Assembly (NCBI GenBank): GCA_021780375.1
Contig: JAJXYT010000129.1
Span: forward strand, 1-34,200
Direction: 5' to 3'
Length of the DNA: 34,200 bases
From: a bacterium
GTDB taxonomy: Bacteria; Verrucomicrobiota; Verrucomicrobiia; Limisphaerales; UBA11358
Part shown: piece after piece, positions 24,342-34,200 of the stretch
Position numbering within the stretch: position 1 is the first letter of the stretch
Layout of the letters: every line of letters starts with the position of its first letter
Position numbers and translations under genes: made by a program
Notes under the pieces: model-generated
What the model saw: only the letters and a program-made list of their open reading frames with translations
What the model was told of the DNA's origin: nothing
Databases searched by the model: none

Positions 24342-24361
24342 AATCCCCGTTTTTGGGGATT
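24342..24361. promoter_or_regulatory. Palindromic element AATCCCC-N6-GGGGATT (copy 1)
   Basis: 76 nt between the element end and the GH2 ATG at 24438; two related palindromes at 31325 and 33226. Confidence 0.55.
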
Positions 24362-24437
24362 AATGCTCACTGTAAATTCATTAATCTATTCGTGTGAACA
24401 ATTATACACTAGCAGCGTTTTCTGCCGCTTTTTTAAA

Positions 24438-27400
24438 ATGAAACATTTATTTGTGTCTTTATCTTTAGCTCGAAATTGTCTGCTTGCTCTTGTCTCCCAG
24501 ACTGGTTTGTTCTTTTTCTTAATGGCCAATCCGGTAGATAGACAGACTAAAACTCATTTTGATATTCCCGGCGATTGGAGTGTCATTGGGAGGACAACGG
24601 TACGAACAAATTCAAATTCGGTGACAGTAGCAGGTGGTTTTTTAGTGGACCGGCAAGTTTGGACCAATGCCGAAATCACTTTGCGGGCCAGGGCGCCGCA
24701 AAGTACGGAGCAGGTGCAGATTTGGGGCGGCTTTCGTTACCGTGATCGGGACAGTCGTTACGTTTTTGCCCTGCGCGGCGGCCACGACGATGATCTTTAC
24801 ATCGCGCGTTACGCCCCGGATGGAGGGGCAAGATTTCTGGGCATCGCCCCGCTTGATTTCAAGCCGAAGCCGGGCGTTTGGTATCGTTTACGAATAGTCA
24901 TTTTGGGATACCGGTTTCAGATTTTCTTGAATGACGAAAAACTGCCCCGCATCAATGCGGTGGACCGCGACCCGCTTTGGGACAGGGGAAACGTGCTGGT
25001 GGGCGGTGGCTGGCTGCCTGCAGAATATTCTGACCTTCAGATAAAGTCCCTGACCGCTGCTGACGAGGCGGCGTTTCTCGCCATTGGCGACAAGCGTTGG
25101 AGCGCCCCGGCGATTGACAAGGAGGCTCTTCGCAAAAAGCAACGGGCTGAATACGCGCCCGCAAAGGTGACGGCTTTGAACCCACTGCGAATGGAAGTTT
25201 CACTCGATGGGAATTGGTTGTTCATGCCGGACTATCAATTGGCCGTCGGACAAAAGCCAATCCGATTGGATTACGACGACCAAAGCTGGCACGTTATGCA
25301 AGTTCCGTCGTTTTGGACGCCGGGTTTGTCCTGGCTGCACGGCGAGACGGGTTTCCCTGACTTGGATAAATTTTCCGCGACCAAAGGTGTGGCCGAGAGT
25401 TTGTATGTTCAACAAATCAAGCGTTGTGACGCCTATACTTTTGACTGGCGCAAGACTTCGTCCGCCTGGTATCGGCATTACCTCGATCTTCCGGCCGACC
25501 TGGGCAATCGGCGTTTTGAACTGACTTTTGACGCCATCGCCAAGGTGTCGAAGATCTGGGTCAACGGAACCGAAGTGGGAACGCACACGGGCATGTTTGG
25601 TCAGGTCAAATGCGATATAACCGAGTTTGTCAAACCCGGGCGCAATGTAATTGTCGTTCATGTCATCAGTCGTCCCGATGCGAACGGAACATCTGCCAAC
25701 AAAGTTGAAGGTGTTGCGGTAACAGTGGAAGTCACCTCAGCTATGCTCCATTCCCTGCCGCACGGCATGTTTCAGGATGACGTGGGCGGTATCTGGCAAC
25801 CGGTGAAGCTCACCGTGACTGCGCCAGTGTTGGTCAGCGACTGCTTTATCGAACCCGACTTGCACGGCGCCAAAATCAACCTGGATATTCTGAACAGCAG
25901 CAGACGGCCGGAGCAACTGGACGTTGGCTATTCGATAGTCTCCGCGCAAGCTGGCGCCCTGCTTTACTCCAACCCGGTGGCGCAACCCTTTCTGGCAGCC
26001 GCGGGCAAGACCGCACGTTTGAAACTGACGACCCCTCGCCTAAATCCAAAACTCTGGTCACCGCAAGATCCCGAACTTTACTATCTTGAAGTTCAATTAA
26101 AGAATGGAAATCAGGCAATTGACAGCTACAGAGTGCGATTTGGGTTCAGAACCTTCACGGTTGACGGAAACAAATTTCTGCTGAATGGGCATCCGTATTG
26201 GCTGCGAGGCGCGGATCCGTTTCCGAACACTTTGATGCCGAATGACGCGAGGCTGGCGCGCCGGTTTATGCAAATCGCCCACGACGGGAACGTTCAAGTC
26301 ACCCGCTCTCATATTGTGCCGTTCACCGCGACCTGGCTGGACGCCGCTGACGAAGCCGGTGTAGCTGTATCCTATGAAGGCACGTGGCCCTGGCTGATGA
26401 TTGAAGGCGACCCCCCGAGTGAACAACTGCTGCATGTTTGGAAAGAAGAGTTTTTATCCTTGATCCGTGAGTATCGGAATCACCCGAGCATTATCCTTTG
26501 GACGGTCAATAATGAGATGAACTTTGCCAGGTTTGACCAGAACAACCCGGAACTGTTGAAGAAAAAATGGGTCGTTCTCAATGACGTGATCACGGCCATG
26601 CGCAAGACCGACCCGACGCGGCCGGTGGTTGCCTATTCGGGATATACCCGCGAGGAGGCCGGCAAGGGTTATCGCGAAGTGGTCCAGCCGAACGGATTTG
26701 ACGATGGCGACGTGGATGACGTCCACCGGTATTACGGGTGGTATAACGAGTCTTTCTTTCATTATTACGACGGACAGTTTCAAAATTTGGCCACTGCCGG
26801 TCGCCCGCTCATCAGCCAGGAAATGTCCACCGGCTACCCAAATAATGACGATGGTCATCCAACGAGGTTTTATCTGTTCAAACACTATACGCCGCAAGCG
26901 CTCGCAGGAGACTACGCTTATGAAAATGCAGACCCGGCTCTTTTCCTCAAACGCCAGGCGTTTATGACCAAGGAATTGGCGGAAACATTGCGGCGGACAA
27001 GTCACGATGCCGCAGCGGGCATATTATACTTTTCCTACTTTACCTGGTTCCAAACTCCGTGGCTGGCGGATCAGATTGAACCTTGGCCCGCTTACTACGC
27101 ACTGAAAACGGCTCTCCAGCCGGTTTTGGTCAGCGCCGAGTTGTATGGCAGACATTTTTATTCCGGCGTCGCTTTTCACGAAAGGGTCTGCGTCATCAAC
27201 GATTCGGGAACCTATCAAGCGCTTCCGGCCAGTCATCTCATCTGGGAATTCACAGACGCCGGCCGAGTTTTGTCCCACGGACAAGTGGAAGTGCCGCCGG
27301 TTAATTATTATACAAATCATTGGCTCGACGTGAAATTCAAAACGCCGCAGAAACTGCCCACGCCACGAGTGGATGGCCAGCTTGTCCTGCGATTGGAGTC

Positions 27401-28109
27401 CGGCGGAATAGTCCTCTCTCAAAACAGTTACGACGTGGTGATGGCCACGTCCGATTGGGCAGCTGCTGGCTTGGGCAAAAAAGCGAGCTTGCTGCTTTGG
27501 AACCCCGGCAAAAGTCCCGTGGAAAGTTTGTCCCGGATTCCTTTTAACGACATTGACTTCCCCGGGGCGGCCAATCCCACGAATGTTTTGATTGTTGGCG
27601 ATCTGGATGGCGTGACATTGACATCATCCCAAACAAACCAACTGAAAGAATTTCTCTCCCAGGGCGGACGAGTGCTCATGCTTCATCCCGAACGAGCGCT
27701 GATTAAACTTTTCCCCGACCTGGTCAAGGCATACGAGGCGAAGGAAGGCGAGATTGTCACGATGCACGTGCCGGAATCACCCGCTTTTTCGGGAATCGAA
27801 CCGCTGGACCTGGCGTGGTTTGAACGTGGACACCGTCAGTTACCCCTCGCCTGCACAGGTATTTATAAAATTGCTTCTGACCGTAAACACGTGACCGCTT
27901 TGGCCGACCAATGCGACCTCCACGGCTATTTGCAAAATCCATCCGAAATCGCAAAGTACAGCGGGACTCCACTGGTGGAAATTCACATTGGCAATGGGCA
28001 TCTGATTGCCAGCGAAATCAACTTTGAATCCGATCAAAACGATCCAATTTCAAGGCGATTGTTAAGCAATATCATCAGGTATTTGCTGGCATCCGGGCGC
28101 AAGCAATGA
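24438..28109 (+). CDS. Secreted glycoside hydrolase family 2 protein with N-terminal LamG/DUF1080-like domain and C-terminal GATase-like region
   Basis: Hydrophobic N-terminus; WYRLRIVILGYRFQIFLNDEKL; GH2 WYRHYLDLPADLGNRRFELTFDAIAKVSKIWVNGTEVG; FLLNGHPYWLRGADPFP; acid/base ILWTVNNEMN; putative nucleophile PLISQEMSTGYP. Confidence 0.88.
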   Translation: MKHLFVSLSLARNCLLALVSQTGLFFFLMANPVDRQTKTHFDIPGDWSVIGRTTVRTNSNSVTVAGGFLVDRQVWTNAEITLRARAPQSTEQVQIWGGFRYRDRDSRYVFALRGGHDDDLYIARYAPDGGARFLGIAPLDFKPKPGVWYRLRIVILGYRFQIFLNDEKLPRINAVDRDPLWDRGNVLVGGGWLPAEYSDLQIKSLTAADEAAFLAIGDKRWSAPAIDKEALRKKQRAEYAPAKVTALNPLRMEVSLDGNWLFMPDYQLAVGQKPIRLDYDDQSWHVMQVPSFWTPGLSWLHGETGFPDLDKFSATKGVAESLYVQQIKRCDAYTFDWRKTSSAWYRHYLDLPADLGNRRFELTFDAIAKVSKIWVNGTEVGTHTGMFGQVKCDITEFVKPGRNVIVVHVISRPDANGTSANKVEGVAVTVEVTSAMLHSLPHGMFQDDVGGIWQPVKLTVTAPVLVSDCFIEPDLHGAKINLDILNSSRRPEQLDVGYSIVSAQAGALLYSNPVAQPFLAAAGKTARLKLTTPRLNPKLWSPQDPELYYLEVQLKNGNQAIDSYRVRFGFRTFTVDGNKFLLNGHPYWLRGADPFPNTLMPNDARLARRFMQIAHDGNVQVTRSHIVPFTATWLDAADEAGVAVSYEGTWPWLMIEGDPPSEQLLHVWKEEFLSLIREYRNHPSIILWTVNNEMNFARFDQNNPELLKKKWVVLNDVITAMRKTDPTRPVVAYSGYTREEAGKGYREVVQPNGFDDGDVDDVHRYYGWYNESFFHYYDGQFQNLATAGRPLISQEMSTGYPNNDDGHPTRFYLFKHYTPQALAGDYAYENADPALFLKRQAFMTKELAETLRRTSHDAAAGILYFSYFTWFQTPWLADQIEPWPAYYALKTALQPVLVSAELYGRHFYSGVAFHERVCVINDSGTYQALPASHLIWEFTDAGRVLSHGQVEVPPVNYYTNHWLDVKFKTPQKLPTPRVDGQLVLRLESGGIVLSQNSYDVVMATSDWAAAGLGKKASLLLWNPGKSPVESLSRIPFNDIDFPGAANPTNVLIVGDLDGVTLTSSQTNQLKEFLSQGGRVLMLHPERALIKLFPDLVKAYEAKEGEIVTMHVPESPAFSGIEPLDLAWFERGHRQLPLACTGIYKIASDRKHVTALADQCDLHGYLQNPSEIAKYSGTPLVEIHIGNGHLIASEINFESDQNDPISRRLLSNIIRYLLASGRKQ

Positions 28110-28152: not shown

Positions 28153-30336
28153 TCACGGTGGAGAGATGGGGATGGTAGTTTGCAAGGGAATCTCGCCCCG
28201 CAACATCTTGCCGGCTTGATTGGCCAGCCGCAAATACCAATCGCTGTTAAGAGTGATTCCGTCGCAGTTCAGGGCCAGAAATGCACCTTGAGCGGGTAGT
28301 TGAGCAGCCGTTGGGACCAGCTTGTACATGGCCGTCCCTTCATTCACCTCGTCAAACATCGCGCCGTAAATCATGTTACAGCCAGCCTGTACGTCATCAT
28401 AGACCTGCCTCCAATAAAACGACCCGCCGTTGCGCGGAATCTGGTTGAGCGGACCGCCATTCTCGTTGTACCAGGAAAAGCCGGGGAAAACCACGGGCAT
28501 ATAATCAATCCCGTTCGTTTTGCATTCGGCAAGGTCCGGCACGGTAATGTTCGCCGTATAACTGTCCGCACCCGCGTTGTTGCCAAATCGGCCAACCGCC
28601 CAGGGACTGACGACATCGAACGAAAGATAGACAGAGGTCCACGCGGCATTAGTGTACGAATCATTCTGTAGCGTGCGCCAATACGTCGGCACGCCGCCCA
28701 TCACGGTGACACCTTGCGATTTGAACCAATTTATCACCGTCTGTGCCTGCTGTGGGGAAGCCAGATGATTTCCATCGTTGAAACCAAACCCCCAGATGGC
28801 CACCACGGGTTTACCTTTGTGGTAAAGATACCGTGTGCTATTCGTAATGTGCATGGAATTTACAAGGTAAAGCCAGTCGTTGGTAATATTACTGACAAGA
28901 GTATTGGTAGGCTGTCCGCTGACGTCATACATAATGGCAAATACCCGCCCGTAGGCTTCTGCCCCTGCGCGGACATTGGCAGTAACCTGGTTGCGGAAAG
29001 AAAAGAATTGCGGACTGGAAAGATCGCTCAGGAAACGTTGAAGAAATACGCCGTCCAATTGATTTTCCTGCATCCATTGGAAATGGCGGAGGACGGTTTC
29101 CTGCACGGCGGATGAATAGAGTTGAACCGGACTGCCGTTGGAATAGGTCATCCGGGTATTAAAAAGCTCATTCGAGGCGAACTCGGATGTGTCTGGAAGA
29201 AAATCCATATTAGCGTTGGCCGCTGTCGGCGTCTGGTTATGGAACCAATGCCACCACTGGTTTGGCGCCGAGCCGTCATTCGGACACGCAAACCAACCCT
29301 GATAGCCCATCAACAATTTGCCATACATCGTGGTGGCATCAACCCCATGATTCAGACTGAAGAACGTGGTCTGGCTCAACAAAGGCAAAATGGCCTCGTT
29401 AGTCCCATTGGTCGTAATGACCGTGTTGGTCAAGGATTCCCAGACGACTGGCGCAAGGAGATTGGTAGTGGACTGCAATCCGTAATAAACAGAAGAAGTC
29501 GGCCAGGAGAGCACCAGATTGGTCCCCGATAGTTGGATGGAAAGATAAACCGCGCTGCTGGAGGTGCTGCCATTGGTTGCAGTGATTGTGGTGGTGTTGG
29601 CGGTTCCGTTGTAATTGCACGCAACGGTGCCAGCACCACCGTAAGCGCTAATTTTGCCGCTTGCGATGAAGCTGTCCACCGAGGCCACTTGATTGCCGGC
29701 AATGACCACCGTTCCACCTCCAATGTCCAGCACAGAACCGCTGCCCTGAATCGAGTTGGTGGCCCATTGGGAAAGAGTCAGCGTGCCGCCGTTGATGTGC
29801 GCGATGCCCGTGCCGCCGCTGAAACCCAACCCGAAGGCGCCCGCGACCGACGCCGTCCCGCCATTCATGATGAACGTGCCGGTTGCTCCCGCATTCAGAC
29901 CAATCCACAAGTGATAATTGAATGTCACCGAGCCGCCGTTCGCAATGTCCATTTCGCCGGTATTGTTGTAGCCAATTGCCGTCCAGGCATAATTGCCATT
30001 ATTGCCTGCCGTATTATCCCCGGCAGACAGGCTGCCCCCGTTGGTGACAATGAGGATTCCCCCCGGCCCGCCGTCACCGATGGAGATTTGGCATCCGCCC
30101 ACCGCCCTGTTCACAATGCACGGAGCGGTGCCGGCATTGAAATATGCCTTATACCCTGCGCCCGGCGCGGCGCCTCCGCTCCAGTTGCCAGCCGTGGTCC
30201 ACATGTCGTCTGATGGCTGATTGGGATTGCCGGCCGGGTTCCAAGTCGTTGCGGTGAGTTGCGCTTGCGCGGAAATCCCCGCGCAGAGCAGAACCCACAC
30301 CGCAAGCCCGCCACAAAGTTTGGGGAGGTTTTTCAT
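28153..30336 (-). CDS. Secreted protein: autotransporter-like beta-helix N-terminal module plus GH99/GH71-like catalytic domain
   Basis: [32 protein letters not shown]...; then GKLLMGYQGWFACPNDGSAPNQWWHWF, MQENQLDGVFLQRFLSDL, FAIMYDVSG, KPVVAIWGFGFND, GAMFDEVNEGTAMYK. ATG at 30336. Confidence 0.8.
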   Translation of the reverse strand: MKNLPKLCGGLAVWVLLCAGISAQAQLTATTWNPAGNPNQPSDDMWTTAGNWSGGAAPGAGYKAYFNAGTAPCIVNRAVGGCQISIGDGGPGGILIVTNGGSLSAGDNTAGNNGNYAWTAIGYNNTGEMDIANGGSVTFNYHLWIGLNAGATGTFIMNGGTASVAGAFGLGFSGGTGIAHINGGTLTLSQWATNSIQGSGSVLDIGGGTVVIAGNQVASVDSFIASGKISAYGGAGTVACNYNGTANTTTITATNGSTSSSAVYLSIQLSGTNLVLSWPTSSVYYGLQSTTNLLAPVVWESLTNTVITTNGTNEAILPLLSQTTFFSLNHGVDATTMYGKLLMGYQGWFACPNDGSAPNQWWHWFHNQTPTAANANMDFLPDTSEFASNELFNTRMTYSNGSPVQLYSSAVQETVLRHFQWMQENQLDGVFLQRFLSDLSSPQFFSFRNQVTANVRAGAEAYGRVFAIMYDVSGQPTNTLVSNITNDWLYLVNSMHITNSTRYLYHKGKPVVAIWGFGFNDGNHLASPQQAQTVINWFKSQGVTVMGGVPTYWRTLQNDSYTNAAWTSVYLSFDVVSPWAVGRFGNNAGADSYTANITVPDLAECKTNGIDYMPVVFPGFSWYNENGGPLNQIPRNGGSFYWRQVYDDVQAGCNMIYGAMFDEVNEGTAMYKLVPTAAQLPAQGAFLALNCDGITLNSDWYLRLANQAGKMLRGEIPLQTTIPISPP

Positions 30337-30442
30337 CTCAAAGTAAATTGCAAAGTAACGCGCCACGTCTCTAATCCAAAAAATCGAAGTGTCTCTGATC
30401 TCCCCCGCCCTGCAAAAGGAATGTCATAAGCCGTCACCGTCT

Positions 30443-31297
30443 TTAGTTAATACGCACACTACTTACCGATGAGAGCCATATCATATCGCTTATAAAAGCC
30501 GGGTCAGTGCATTGCCCATTGTGATATAATCCGTTGTAGGTCTTTGCTGACCTCCATTTGTGGATGATCGAATGTCCATCGGCGAATGCCATACCGGTCG
30601 CGCCATCATGACGCCCCCCTGGAGTATCTATTTGGTAACCAGTCGTCCAGCCAAGCGGCGTTATCTGAACTGCGAAGGCGGCATCGTTGATAGTTGCAGA
30701 CGATTCGTCAATGAAGACCCAGGTTTGCGATTGGTGTACGATAGTGCTCAGCTTATTGAATATTCTGTACCTCGTATTCGGAAGCCATTCACCTTGACCA
30801 AAGGTTTCGCTCATGGAGTAACTACGCACCCTGAGGGTGCCCCCTCCCCTGGGATCAGCGTCATGTTGAGTCGAATTATCCGCCGGGCAATGATAGACTT
30901 TTACATTATTGACATAGGGGTAAAGCTCCCCAGCCGTGAGTGGTTGCGTGTTGGTAGAGGTGTGATAATCGTTCATGATTCCACCGACCCAATTGGTGCT
31001 CCAAATGGTAAGATTTCCAGGCAAGCTGCCGTTGTCCAACAGCGCTGGAGTATAGTCGTTATGATCATTGGCGTACATGACCCAACCCAGCGCCAGTTGC
31101 CTTGTGCAGTTCATACATGCAATTCCCTGGGCTCGCACCTTTGCCGCGCTCAAGGCCGGCAATAACATAGCCGCAAGAATCGCAATAATGGCAATGACCA
31201 CCAGTAATTCAATCAACGTAAAGCCTTGTCGGGAGGGCAAGTAAAATTGTTTTCGATGTGAATAGATTTTTCTATTTGAATACATTGATAACGCCAT
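30443..31297 (-). CDS. Pseudopilin-like protein with prepilin N-terminal motif and H-X9-DG motif
   Basis: [36 protein letters not shown] and [15 protein letters not shown] (exact H-X9-DG). Start 31297 or 31285; the ORF extension to 31654 is antisense to the next gene. Confidence 0.9.
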
Positions 31298-31324
31298 TTT
31301 AGGCCCGCCCCAACCCGTTTTGCC

Positions 31325-31342
31325 ATCCCCGAAAACGGGGAT
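31325..31342. promoter_or_regulatory. Palindromic element ATCCCCG-AAAA-CGGGGAT (copy 2)
   Basis: Perfect 7-bp arms between divergent genes; 73 nt to the ATG at 31416. Confidence 0.6.
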
Positions 31343-31415
31343 ACCAATGCGCCCCAATTGTGTTAGCCTTACCCGGATTCCGCATACAATCCACAACCAT
31401 AACACAAACCCAAAT

Positions 31416-32729
31416 ATGAAAAGAAAAATAAACTTCTCTGGAGCATTCAAGGCCCTGCTCGTGGCTGGCCTGCTGGCGTCGCCGATGCTGGCCTCCAACG
31501 CTATCGCTGCAGACAATTCGTGGTCTCCGCTCGACCTCAATCCTGACGGCAGCGCTAATTTTGCCGATCCCAACAACTGGTCCCTGGCTGTAGTGCCCAC
31601 TAACGGCGATGGGAACCGGGTCATAATCATTGGAACTTTAGGAAGCACCACCAACTACGTTGCTTGCGTTATAACAAATAACATGGCCGATCTGTACCAG
31701 TTAATCATGGGCGATAACGGTACTGCTGGAGGCGGAATTCTGATTGTCACCAATGGTGCCCATGTGTCGTTTGGGGTTGCCAGTGGACAATGGACAGGAA
31801 TTGGTTTCCCGAACGGCCCTGGGACGTTGTACGTTGGACCAGGTTGCGATTTCACTTGCGGCAGCCATCTCTGGGTGGGGCAAGGAACCAATAACGGCGC
31901 TCCTGCTCAGGGAACAGTAATCATTGACGGCGGCTCGATTCATGTTCCAAACGGCCAATTGGGCGTGGGCTGGAGCGGGATAGGTGGCACCAACTATATT
32001 ACCCTCGAGAACGGCGGCCAATTGTACTTGACCACTTGGGCTTCCCAAACGCTTGGCTACCCGGGCAACACCAACTCGCTTGGTATTATGAACCTCGCCG
32101 GAAACACCTGCACTGTCGTCGTCACAAACAATCAAACCGGTTACATGAATACCTTGATAACAAATAACCAACTCATCGCCTACGGCGGCGCGGGCACGAT
32201 CCAGTACAGCTATAATCCAGCGCTGAACATAACTACCATCAGTGCCGTTGCGCCTGGCTCGCCCATCATCACTAGCCAACCGGCAAATGTGGTAACCTCG
32301 TTGGGCAGCACAGTCTCTTTCACTGTGACGAATAACAACGTGGCCGTCAACTATCAATGGATGTTCAATGGCAACCCGCTCTCGAACGGTGGTGGGATTT
32401 CCGGTGCCACCACGGCCACTCTTACTGTTACCGGGGTTACTCTCGCTCAGCTGGGAAGCTATTCTGTGAAGATTACCGCCCAGAGTGATTCTACCCTGTT
32501 TACCACGAGCAGTCCGGCCTCATTGAGCACCACCGGGATTAACCTCTATCCTGTCGTCACGGTCAACGGAGTTCCCGGCAATACATACGTGACCTCGTGG
32601 TCCGCCACGGTGAACGGGACTTATACTCCGTTTGCGACGAACACCGTCAACAGTTTCGCCCCGCTGTACGTCGTTGACACCGCTTCGCCGATGAGCGTCA
32701 CGCGGTTTTATAAGACGGTTCAGCAGTAA
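31416..32729 (+). CDS. Secreted beta-helix/Ig-like domain protein
   Basis: Signal [47 protein letters not shown]...HLWVGQG...; Ig-like [54 protein letters not shown]. Confidence 0.8.
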
Positions 32730-32987: not shown

Positions 32988-33225
32988 AGATCATGAGATG
33001 CTTTGTGGAATACAGCAATTATGTGGTGGCGGCGAATCCCCGTTGCTGGAGATTCTCAGGCGATTTGGGTCCAATCCCGACCACGACGAGGCGTCGCCAC
33101 CACCGTTTGGCCATCTTTTCCCCAAAGCAGCTATGAGAATCAAGTGTCGTGGGATCCTGCATCGTCGCATCAGTGTATGCTTATGCTGGAGCGGGCATTG
33201 GGCCGCCTTGTATTGGCGAAGGCGG

Positions 33226-33245
33226 TATCCCCGAAAGCGGGGATA
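33226..33245. promoter_or_regulatory. Palindromic element TATCCCCG-AAAG-CGGGGATA (copy 3)
   Basis: Perfect 8-bp arms; 71 nt to the ATG at 33317. Confidence 0.6.
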
Positions 33246-33316
33246 GTGACGCAGCCGCAAAACCGGTAGAATTGCGTAATTACCAAAATACCAAACCACA
33301 AACACAATTATTGAAT

Positions 33317-34200
33317 ATGCTCGCCGAGAAAAGGATTCCCAGGAAAGCCGGGTTTACGCTCATTGAGCTTCTGGTGGTGATTGCCATTATCGCCATTCTG
33401 GCCGCCATGCTTTTGCCAGCCTTGTCCAAAGCCAAGCAAAAGGCGCAGGCCCTGTCTGGACTCAGCAACATGCGTCAGTTGCAGATCGGCAGTATGCTTT
33501 ATGCAAATGACAACTTGGATGCTTTTCCTGGCCAGTGGCCTATTGCAGGCGGGTATTCCCCTGCTGGGGGAAACGGATATCCTAATTGGGTTGCAGGGAG
33601 CATGGGAAGCGGTCTCACTGGGAGCGCCGATGGCCCGAGGGGATGCTCGACCAATGCCAATTTTCTGGGAGTGAATGGAGACACCTTTACAGCCAATGGA
33701 ACAACAATAACACTGGCTGGCTCCATCGGGGAGTATGTCAAGAACGGGAGAGTCTACAGGGATCCTGCGGATACTTCCATAGATAAAACCTGGCATGTGA
33801 CTCGAGTGCGGTCGTGCTCTGCGAATATGTATGTTGGATTGACTACGCAGGAAGAACAATCTTCAACAATCAATTATGGGTTTGGCATTGATAAGCGATT
33901 CAGGTGTTTTCCGAAATACTCTGATCTTGGTCCTGGTGGATTCGGTCCGGCGGAGTGCTTTGAGTTTCTCAATGAGAATCCGCTCACGCTCAATGATGGA
34001 TGGTTTGAATACGTTGCTGCCGGTAACAGTGTTAATGACTATCCAGCGCCGAGCCAAGAGGGGGGCACTGCCTTTTCCTACTGCGACGGCCACGCCGCGA
34101 TTCATCAATGGCATGACACATTTGTCAATTATAATCCCTACCATGGGGGAGATCAGGATCCGAAATGGCTCGCCCAGCATGGAACTGTGGTAAATAGATG
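33317..34200 (+). CDS. Pseudopilin-like protein, 3' end beyond window
   Basis: Manual translation: [74 protein letters not shown]... open to the window end; not listed in the ORF track. Confidence 0.9.

Follow-up and report, generated by a model that had tools for sequence, protein, structure and literature searches.

A candidate response-regulator operator at glycan-degradation and pseudopilin promoters in Limisphaerales

A short palindrome that precedes a glycoside hydrolase gene in a Limisphaerales genome is probably (about 0.8 by our own estimate) the operator of a NarL/LuxR-type response regulator, which would switch on a regulon of glycan-degradation and pseudopilin genes. This reading is carried by the site itself, its promoter position, a fixed distance to a predicted -10 element, the genes behind it, and the linkage and co-occurrence with one clade of response regulators, all of them taken from sequence. 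The window, that is, the whole stretch of DNA that was analysed (34,200 nt), covers the opening 34.2 kb of contig C177 (58.5 kb) in a 4.01-Mb genome (G000) that is 85% complete. The first-pass annotation had proposed a genome-wide motif search, and a pattern search over the whole 4.0-Mb genome gave seven good copies, five on C177 and two on C2, and the core nowhere else; both C177 and C2 are rich in CAZyme genes. The case for a new regulon in an uncultured bacterial group, as worked out from sequence, looks sound.

Sequence and distribution of the palindrome

The sequence AATCCCCGTTTTTGGGGATT is present at 24342-24361 of the window, upstream of the GH2 gene as had been annotated, and the three copies of ATCCCCG-N4-CGGGGAT in the window are listed in Table 1; copies 2 and 3 are better than copy 1. 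In the window these strong copies are confined to the CAZyme region, which agrees with the earlier view that they are restricted to an accessory island. A fourth near-match at 33036 has two mismatches, is without the AAA core and looks like chance. The gene-oriented consensus is about ATCCCC-G-N-TTT-C-GGGGAT, and 803 kb of loci with a putative regulator or palindrome contained 26 exact copies (arms and AAA core) and 33 copies with one mismatch, more than expected by chance. When hexamer palindromes were counted with no prior motif in 35 of these loci (506 kb), of which some had been chosen by the palindrome and 25 by the regulator, the commonest were ATCCCC-N6-GGGGAT and TCCCCG-N4-CGGGGA with 17 each, and the next reached 5. 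Regulator-chosen loci with an independent palindrome were L109, L111, L113, L116, L118 and L120.

Table 1 Positions of predicted operators, -10 elements and target genes (window coordinates), and of palindromes on whole contigs
Feature	Position	Strand	Remarks
Operator copy 1, ATCCCCGTTTTTGGGGAT	24343..24360	none	Predicted; upstream of GH2 gene
Predicted -10, TAATCT	24382..24387	+	21 nt after operator copy 1
Secreted glycoside hydrolase family 2 protein	24438..28109	+	Predicted target; Pfam; best NCBIfam relatives are beta-galactosidases, below cut-off
Pseudopilin	30443..31285	-	Divergent predicted target of copy 2; ATG 39 nt from operator; TIGR02532 above cut-off
Predicted -10, TAAAAT	31296..31301	-	23 nt from copy 2, for the divergent pseudopilin
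Operator copy 2, ATCCCCGAAAACGGGGAT	31325..31342	none	Predicted; between divergent genes
Predicted -10, TAGCCT	31364..31369	+	21 nt after copy 2
Secreted Ig-domain protein	31416..32729	+	Predicted target; Pfam
Operator copy 3, ATCCCCGAAAGCGGGGAT	33227..33244	none	Predicted; upstream of pseudopilin
Predicted -10, TAGAAT	33267..33272	+	22 nt after copy 3
Pseudopilin with prepilin N-methylation motif	33317..34200	+	Predicted target, open at window end; Pfam/NCBIfam
Palindrome copies on C177	24343, 31325, 33227, 42587, 52220
Palindrome copies on C2	39803, 41085
Sister palindrome	G098:C54:5020 and 5247 (L297), G090:C89:6901, G093:C31/C81, G076:C180/C386, G086:C10, G135:C31, G090:C29

An exact palindrome was found in 15 of 146 Limisphaerales-like genomes, and palindromes with an A/T-rich core recur at CAZyme or pseudopilin promoters in other genera and families. 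Exact palindromes with other cores (G045, G059, G067, G099, G115, G130, G133) had neither an AT core nor a close regulator and were treated as chance. The looser pattern ATCCCC-N{2,14}-GGGGAT gave mostly background over the 146 genomes, about 0-10 per genome, and its two outliers were unrelated: G083 is a mixture, and G084 carries a different repeat, ATCCCCTCATGGGGAT, a short REP-like palindrome with roughly 16-18 dispersed copies in a 7.5-Mb genome (e.g. G084:C1:5921-5936). In same-genus genomes that lack the regulator, the string ATC[AC]CCGAAACAGGGGAT was taken as coding: in a frame inferred from sequence it reads ATC-ACC-GAA-ACA-GGG-GAT (I-T-E-T-G-D). A tandem array at G130:C20:27445-27823 consists of four copies of ATCCCCTSCGGGGAT at a spacing of about 121 bp, with a palindrome in each unit. 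Two operator pairs stand 26-29 bp apart (G070:C24:114049 and 114078; G129:C87:3206 and 3232), and the pair in G070 lies in a divergent promoter region where each operator is spaced to its own -10.

Candidate activator and sensor kinase

One copy on C2 lies 147 nt upstream of a GH3 gene, which is followed on the same strand by a Y_Y_Y/HisKA_3 kinase and a Response_reg/GerE regulator. We count this arrangement, with the site ahead of three consecutive genes that share a strand, in favour of the response regulator as the activator that would use the operator. The regulator (C2:34467-35114) is a receiver domain (Response_reg, 93 bits) followed by a GerE helix-turn-helix (58 bits), both above cut-off, which is the architecture of a NarL/LuxR-type response regulator, and the adjoining kinase has HisKA_3 and HATPase_c domains, as expected for an HPK7-type partner. 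The structural model of the kinase shows a signal peptide, an all-beta portion in the periplasm, a single TM helix and a core like that of DesK; a PDB search with this model for naming the sensor fold returned matches dominated by kinase cores. The regulator is not NarL itself, since it scores 133 bits against an NCBIfam equivalog cut-off of 250 and the spacing and sequence of the site differ from the 7-2-7 site, and the pair is not a hybrid two-component system, since the kinase and the GerE regulator are separate proteins. Its close relatives come from records named Pedosphaera, Limisphaerales and Verrucomicrobia subdivision 3, and the recognition-helix region ETVRTYVKNICQKMHVR(S/N)R is common to this close clade and differs in other regulators. 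The regulator gene is on C2 and the three window copies are on C177, so action in trans is assumed.

With the C2 regulator as query, relatives of at least 60% identity were counted among the 146 genomes and were found in 15. All eight genomes with an exact AT-core palindrome fell inside this set (p=1.5e-9), and the motif density in the co-occurrence comparison was 1.09/Mb vs 0.13/Mb (p=9e-9), though these p-values treat related genomes as independent and are too small. The association extends over several families of the order, and it emerged both when the search began with the palindrome and when it began with the regulator. The regulator shares a contig with the palindrome in G000 (C2), G006, G020, G026, G070 and G120, and the contigs of the last five had been found from the palindrome alone. 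In a regulator-first scan of contigs, loci with a response regulator of 66-82% identity had 13 sites in 8 of 13 loci, and loci with one of 41-54% identity had none in 67 loci (1.12 Mb). A few genomes with the regulator, G014 and G071, are exceptions with no or one site.

It is unlikely, in our judgement, that the site is the operator of another DNA-binding protein common to these clusters, e.g. a LacI- or AraC-type regulator, or of a repressor. A perfect inverted repeat would suit many dimeric factors, and binding by the response regulator is a prediction. But the most widespread families in the 23 groups of site-bearing loci were the kinase (17) and the response regulator (16), and no other annotated regulator family recurred in these groups, although some of the loci had been selected by the regulator, which makes the count circular in part. 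The presence of the regulator clade also predicts the presence of the site across genomes, which we count against another protein.

Promoter position and predicted targets

Considering 61 sites, 55 were within 300 nt upstream of a start codon, compared with 17.7% of random positions (p about 7e-35), and three lay in genes away from any start. The first-pass annotation had reported a constant spacing of 76, 73 and 71 nt to the three start codons in the window. The figures agree with the gaps of 77, 73 and 72 nt that we measured from the end of the 18-nt core to the starts at 24438, 31416 and 33317, given that the element ends differ, but the spacing is not constant. Other copies in the same genome are 214, 107/108 and 147 nt from a start codon and the seventh precedes a truncated gene; over 56 sites in this genome and its relatives the distance was 5-279 nt (median 88), and 4 of the 56 fell within 66-81 nt. 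Start distances elsewhere thus do not cluster near 70-76 nt, an outcome that the first-pass annotation had itself named as a refutation, and the cluster in the window is a coincidence of three.

The true constant is the distance of 20-23 nt to a predicted -10. When flanks were aligned by the site, the only further conserved feature beyond its 18-20 nt was a spaced TANNNT, which starts 20-23 nt downstream in 30 of 70 gene-side flanks, while about half of these flanks have no clean TANNNT at this distance, among them those of the GH92 copy (42587, + side) and of the copy at 52220. All other 4-nt windows had a mean of 2.8 and a maximum of 7, and the maximum in 2000 shuffles was 14. The C2 GH3 gene also has such an element, TAAGTT. 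The distance from the centre of the site to the -10 is 29-32 bp, commonest 31, so if TANNNT is read as the -10, the palindrome would be centred near -43, over the -35 region and upstream of the predicted transcription start. Class II activator sites occupy this place (centre between about -41 and -44, covering the -35, with the distance to the -10 fixed).

Such a position points to a DNA site for an activator and not to the 5'-UTR hairpin that had been put forward as an alternative, in which the palindrome would be transcribed as a stability element, leader regulator or protein-binding hairpin. The palindrome can indeed fold as a 6-7-bp stem with a 4-nt loop, and its copies precede start codons, but with a predicted -10 fixed downstream it would lie upstream of the predicted transcript start. 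Stem-breaking one-base variants are common, with 33 uncompensated and 0 compensated: the arms are conserved as sequence and not as pairing. Moreover, a site can serve a gene to either side of it in divergent pairs, the AAA core points either way relative to the gene (20 same, 36 opposite), and there was no Rfam match in the window. We consider the hairpin very unlikely. Least probable of all is a REP/MITE-like element, a short palindrome that is mobile or amplified and owes its spread to transposition and not to promoter selection, since, although the copies are near-identical and clustered on two contigs and G084 has a REP-like palindrome in many copies, nothing but the spaced -10 is conserved past the site, which is not the dispersal regardless of promoters with conserved flanks that defines REP/MITE elements, the copies sit in promoters, and their distribution follows the regulator and not copy-number bursts.

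The putative targets in the window are given in Table 1. Copy 2 is bidirectional, with the secreted Ig protein on its + side and a pseudopilin on its - side; the earlier beta-helix call for the Ig protein was without Pfam support. C177 further carries GH43, pectate-lyase-like, GH31, GH92, GH3, DUF5703 and esterase genes, a divergent pair of pectate-lyase-like and GH43 genes and an alpha-1,3-glucanase-like protein. According to Pfam, the enzymes beside the 61 sites were of GH2, GH3, GH29 (fucosidase), GH31, GH43, GH92, GH95, GH97 and GH99-like families, together with DUF5703, DUF5010 with CBM35, alpha-1,3-glucanase-like, pectate-lyase-like, BD-FAE esterase and sulfatase proteins; the non-enzyme neighbours were Ig/laminin and PATR autotransporter-like proteins, DUF7133, pseudopilins, a PEP-CTERM protein and the kinase itself. 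In four genomes (G000 twice, G070, G120 twice and G044) pseudopilin genes stand beside 6 of the 61 sites as predicted targets. The proposal of a common operator defining a regulon therefore gains support, since the copies sit at promoters, recur before both CAZyme and pseudopilin genes across several families of the order, and follow a single response regulator in their distribution.

Three other genes were noticed in this analysis. A 737-aa secreted protein at window 28153-30366 (-) has no Pfam or NCBIfam name, and its family occurs in 14 of the 23 groups of loci with sites, so that only the kinase and the regulator are commoner. The GH31 gene at L030:6231-8565 (C177 about 40230-42564) is split over two frames, and the frameshift is either an assembly error or gene decay. 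At L032:11086-13363 (C2 41085-43362) an operator copy is followed by TATAAG at 22 nt and then by a DUF5703 gene missing about its first 90 profile positions, perhaps a recombination junction.

Proposed mechanism, related systems and meaning

In the proposed mechanism, a membrane sensor kinase with a periplasmic all-beta domain that includes a Y_Y_Y segment, one TM helix and a HisKA_3/HATPase core would sense carbohydrate outside the cytoplasm and pass the signal on by phosphorylating the response regulator. The dimeric regulator would then bind the inverted repeat directly, centred some 43 bp before the transcription start, and would act as an activator, not a repressor, by recruiting RNA polymerase to promoters with a -10 that can do without a good -35 (class II activation). 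The regulon would consist of secreted glycan-degrading enzymes, adhesin-like proteins and pseudopilins, and the regulator encoded on C2 would reach the C177 sites in trans. In several genomes the kinase and regulator genes may also belong to it, with autoregulation through the GH3-kinase-regulator run on C2.

Known systems offer partial parallels. At the E. coli ogt1052 promoter, activation needs no more than a NarL site at -44.5, which lies 32 bp from the -10; for a class II CRP site at -41.5 the corresponding distance is 29 bp (PMC9314961). The NarL operator is a 7-2-7 heptamer inverted repeat for a regulator of the same two-domain family, and the centre of the site here has a distance to the -10 in this range (29-32 bp), but ATCCCC is not the NarL heptamer, the inner spacing is longer (ATCCCC-N6-GGGGAT), and signal and targets differ. 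The operator of ComA in Bacillus subtilis, TTGCGG-N4-CCGCAA, is an inverted repeat of two hexamers with a 4-nt spacer (PMC4797271). ComA is a NarL-family activator and TCCCCG-N4-CGGGGA shares its operator geometry, whereas the sequence differs, the ComA inverted repeat lies further upstream (class I) with a direct repeat at the class II place, and ComA serves quorum sensing, not glycan use. The ComA inverted repeat activated poorly when moved to a class II position (PMC4797271), so an inverted repeat in that place does not guarantee class II action, though NarL at -44.5 does activate. The nearest solved relatives are DesR, VraR and NarL for the regulator and DesK and VraS for the kinase core; compared with DesK-DesR and VraS-VraR, the sensor domain, organism and targets differ.

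In Bacteroides HTCS a single protein combines a periplasmic Y_Y_Y sensor with kinase and receiver domains and an AraC HTH. They have a role in polysaccharide utilisation loci (PMC3404733). The present system resembles them in a periplasmic sensor containing Y_Y_Y and in the predicted control of co-located CAZyme genes, but its kinase and regulator are separate, its output domain is GerE/LuxR and not AraC, and there is no SusD. The SusD search (PF07980) found no match at E<=0.001 in this 85% complete genome, with a positive Bacteroides control; with no SusD homologue, this is not a Bacteroides-type locus with SusC/SusD.

A sister palindrome, GTCCCC[AC]N4TGGGGACTGG, had 10 exact copies in 6 of the 146 genomes and 0 for the reversed control. 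Some of these copies were also caught by the promoter search with TANNNT at the same distance of about 22 nt, and some adjoin response regulators of about 50% identity (G098:C54, G090:C89), as do TCCCC-N6-GGGGA variants in G083:C16, G110:C407 and G136:C17. The sister palindrome is probably the operator of a paralogous regulator. The general claim of a TCCCC palindrome near every regulator of about 50% identity does not hold, with a copy nearby at 5 of 39 loci, and was kept as no more than a lead. An order-wide operator grammar is possible, in which outer and inner bases vary (ATCCCCGAAA.. here, the sister form in other families). A broader proposal, to which we give less than even odds, is that Limisphaerales have an expanded family of carbohydrate-sensing NarL-type kinase/regulator pairs with clade-specific TCCCC-N6-GGGGA operators at a fixed -43, coupling each glycan-degradation cluster to its own pseudopilins. 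If this is true, the numerous pseudopilins would be part of extracellular glycan capture or enzyme secretion.

Little seems known about how CAZyme genes are switched in Verrucomicrobiota without SusD, and the literature that we searched described no operator from this group. Pseudopilins occur in very large numbers in the phylum, and the sites with a pseudopilin as predicted target tie them to glycan degradation. These targets agree with Verruconatronum, where a pseudopilin was induced on alginate and one pseudopilin has 67 homologues, the only proteome evidence that we found (PMC13274419). With a specific predicted operator, activator and sensor kinase, the regulon would become predictable from any genome of the group.
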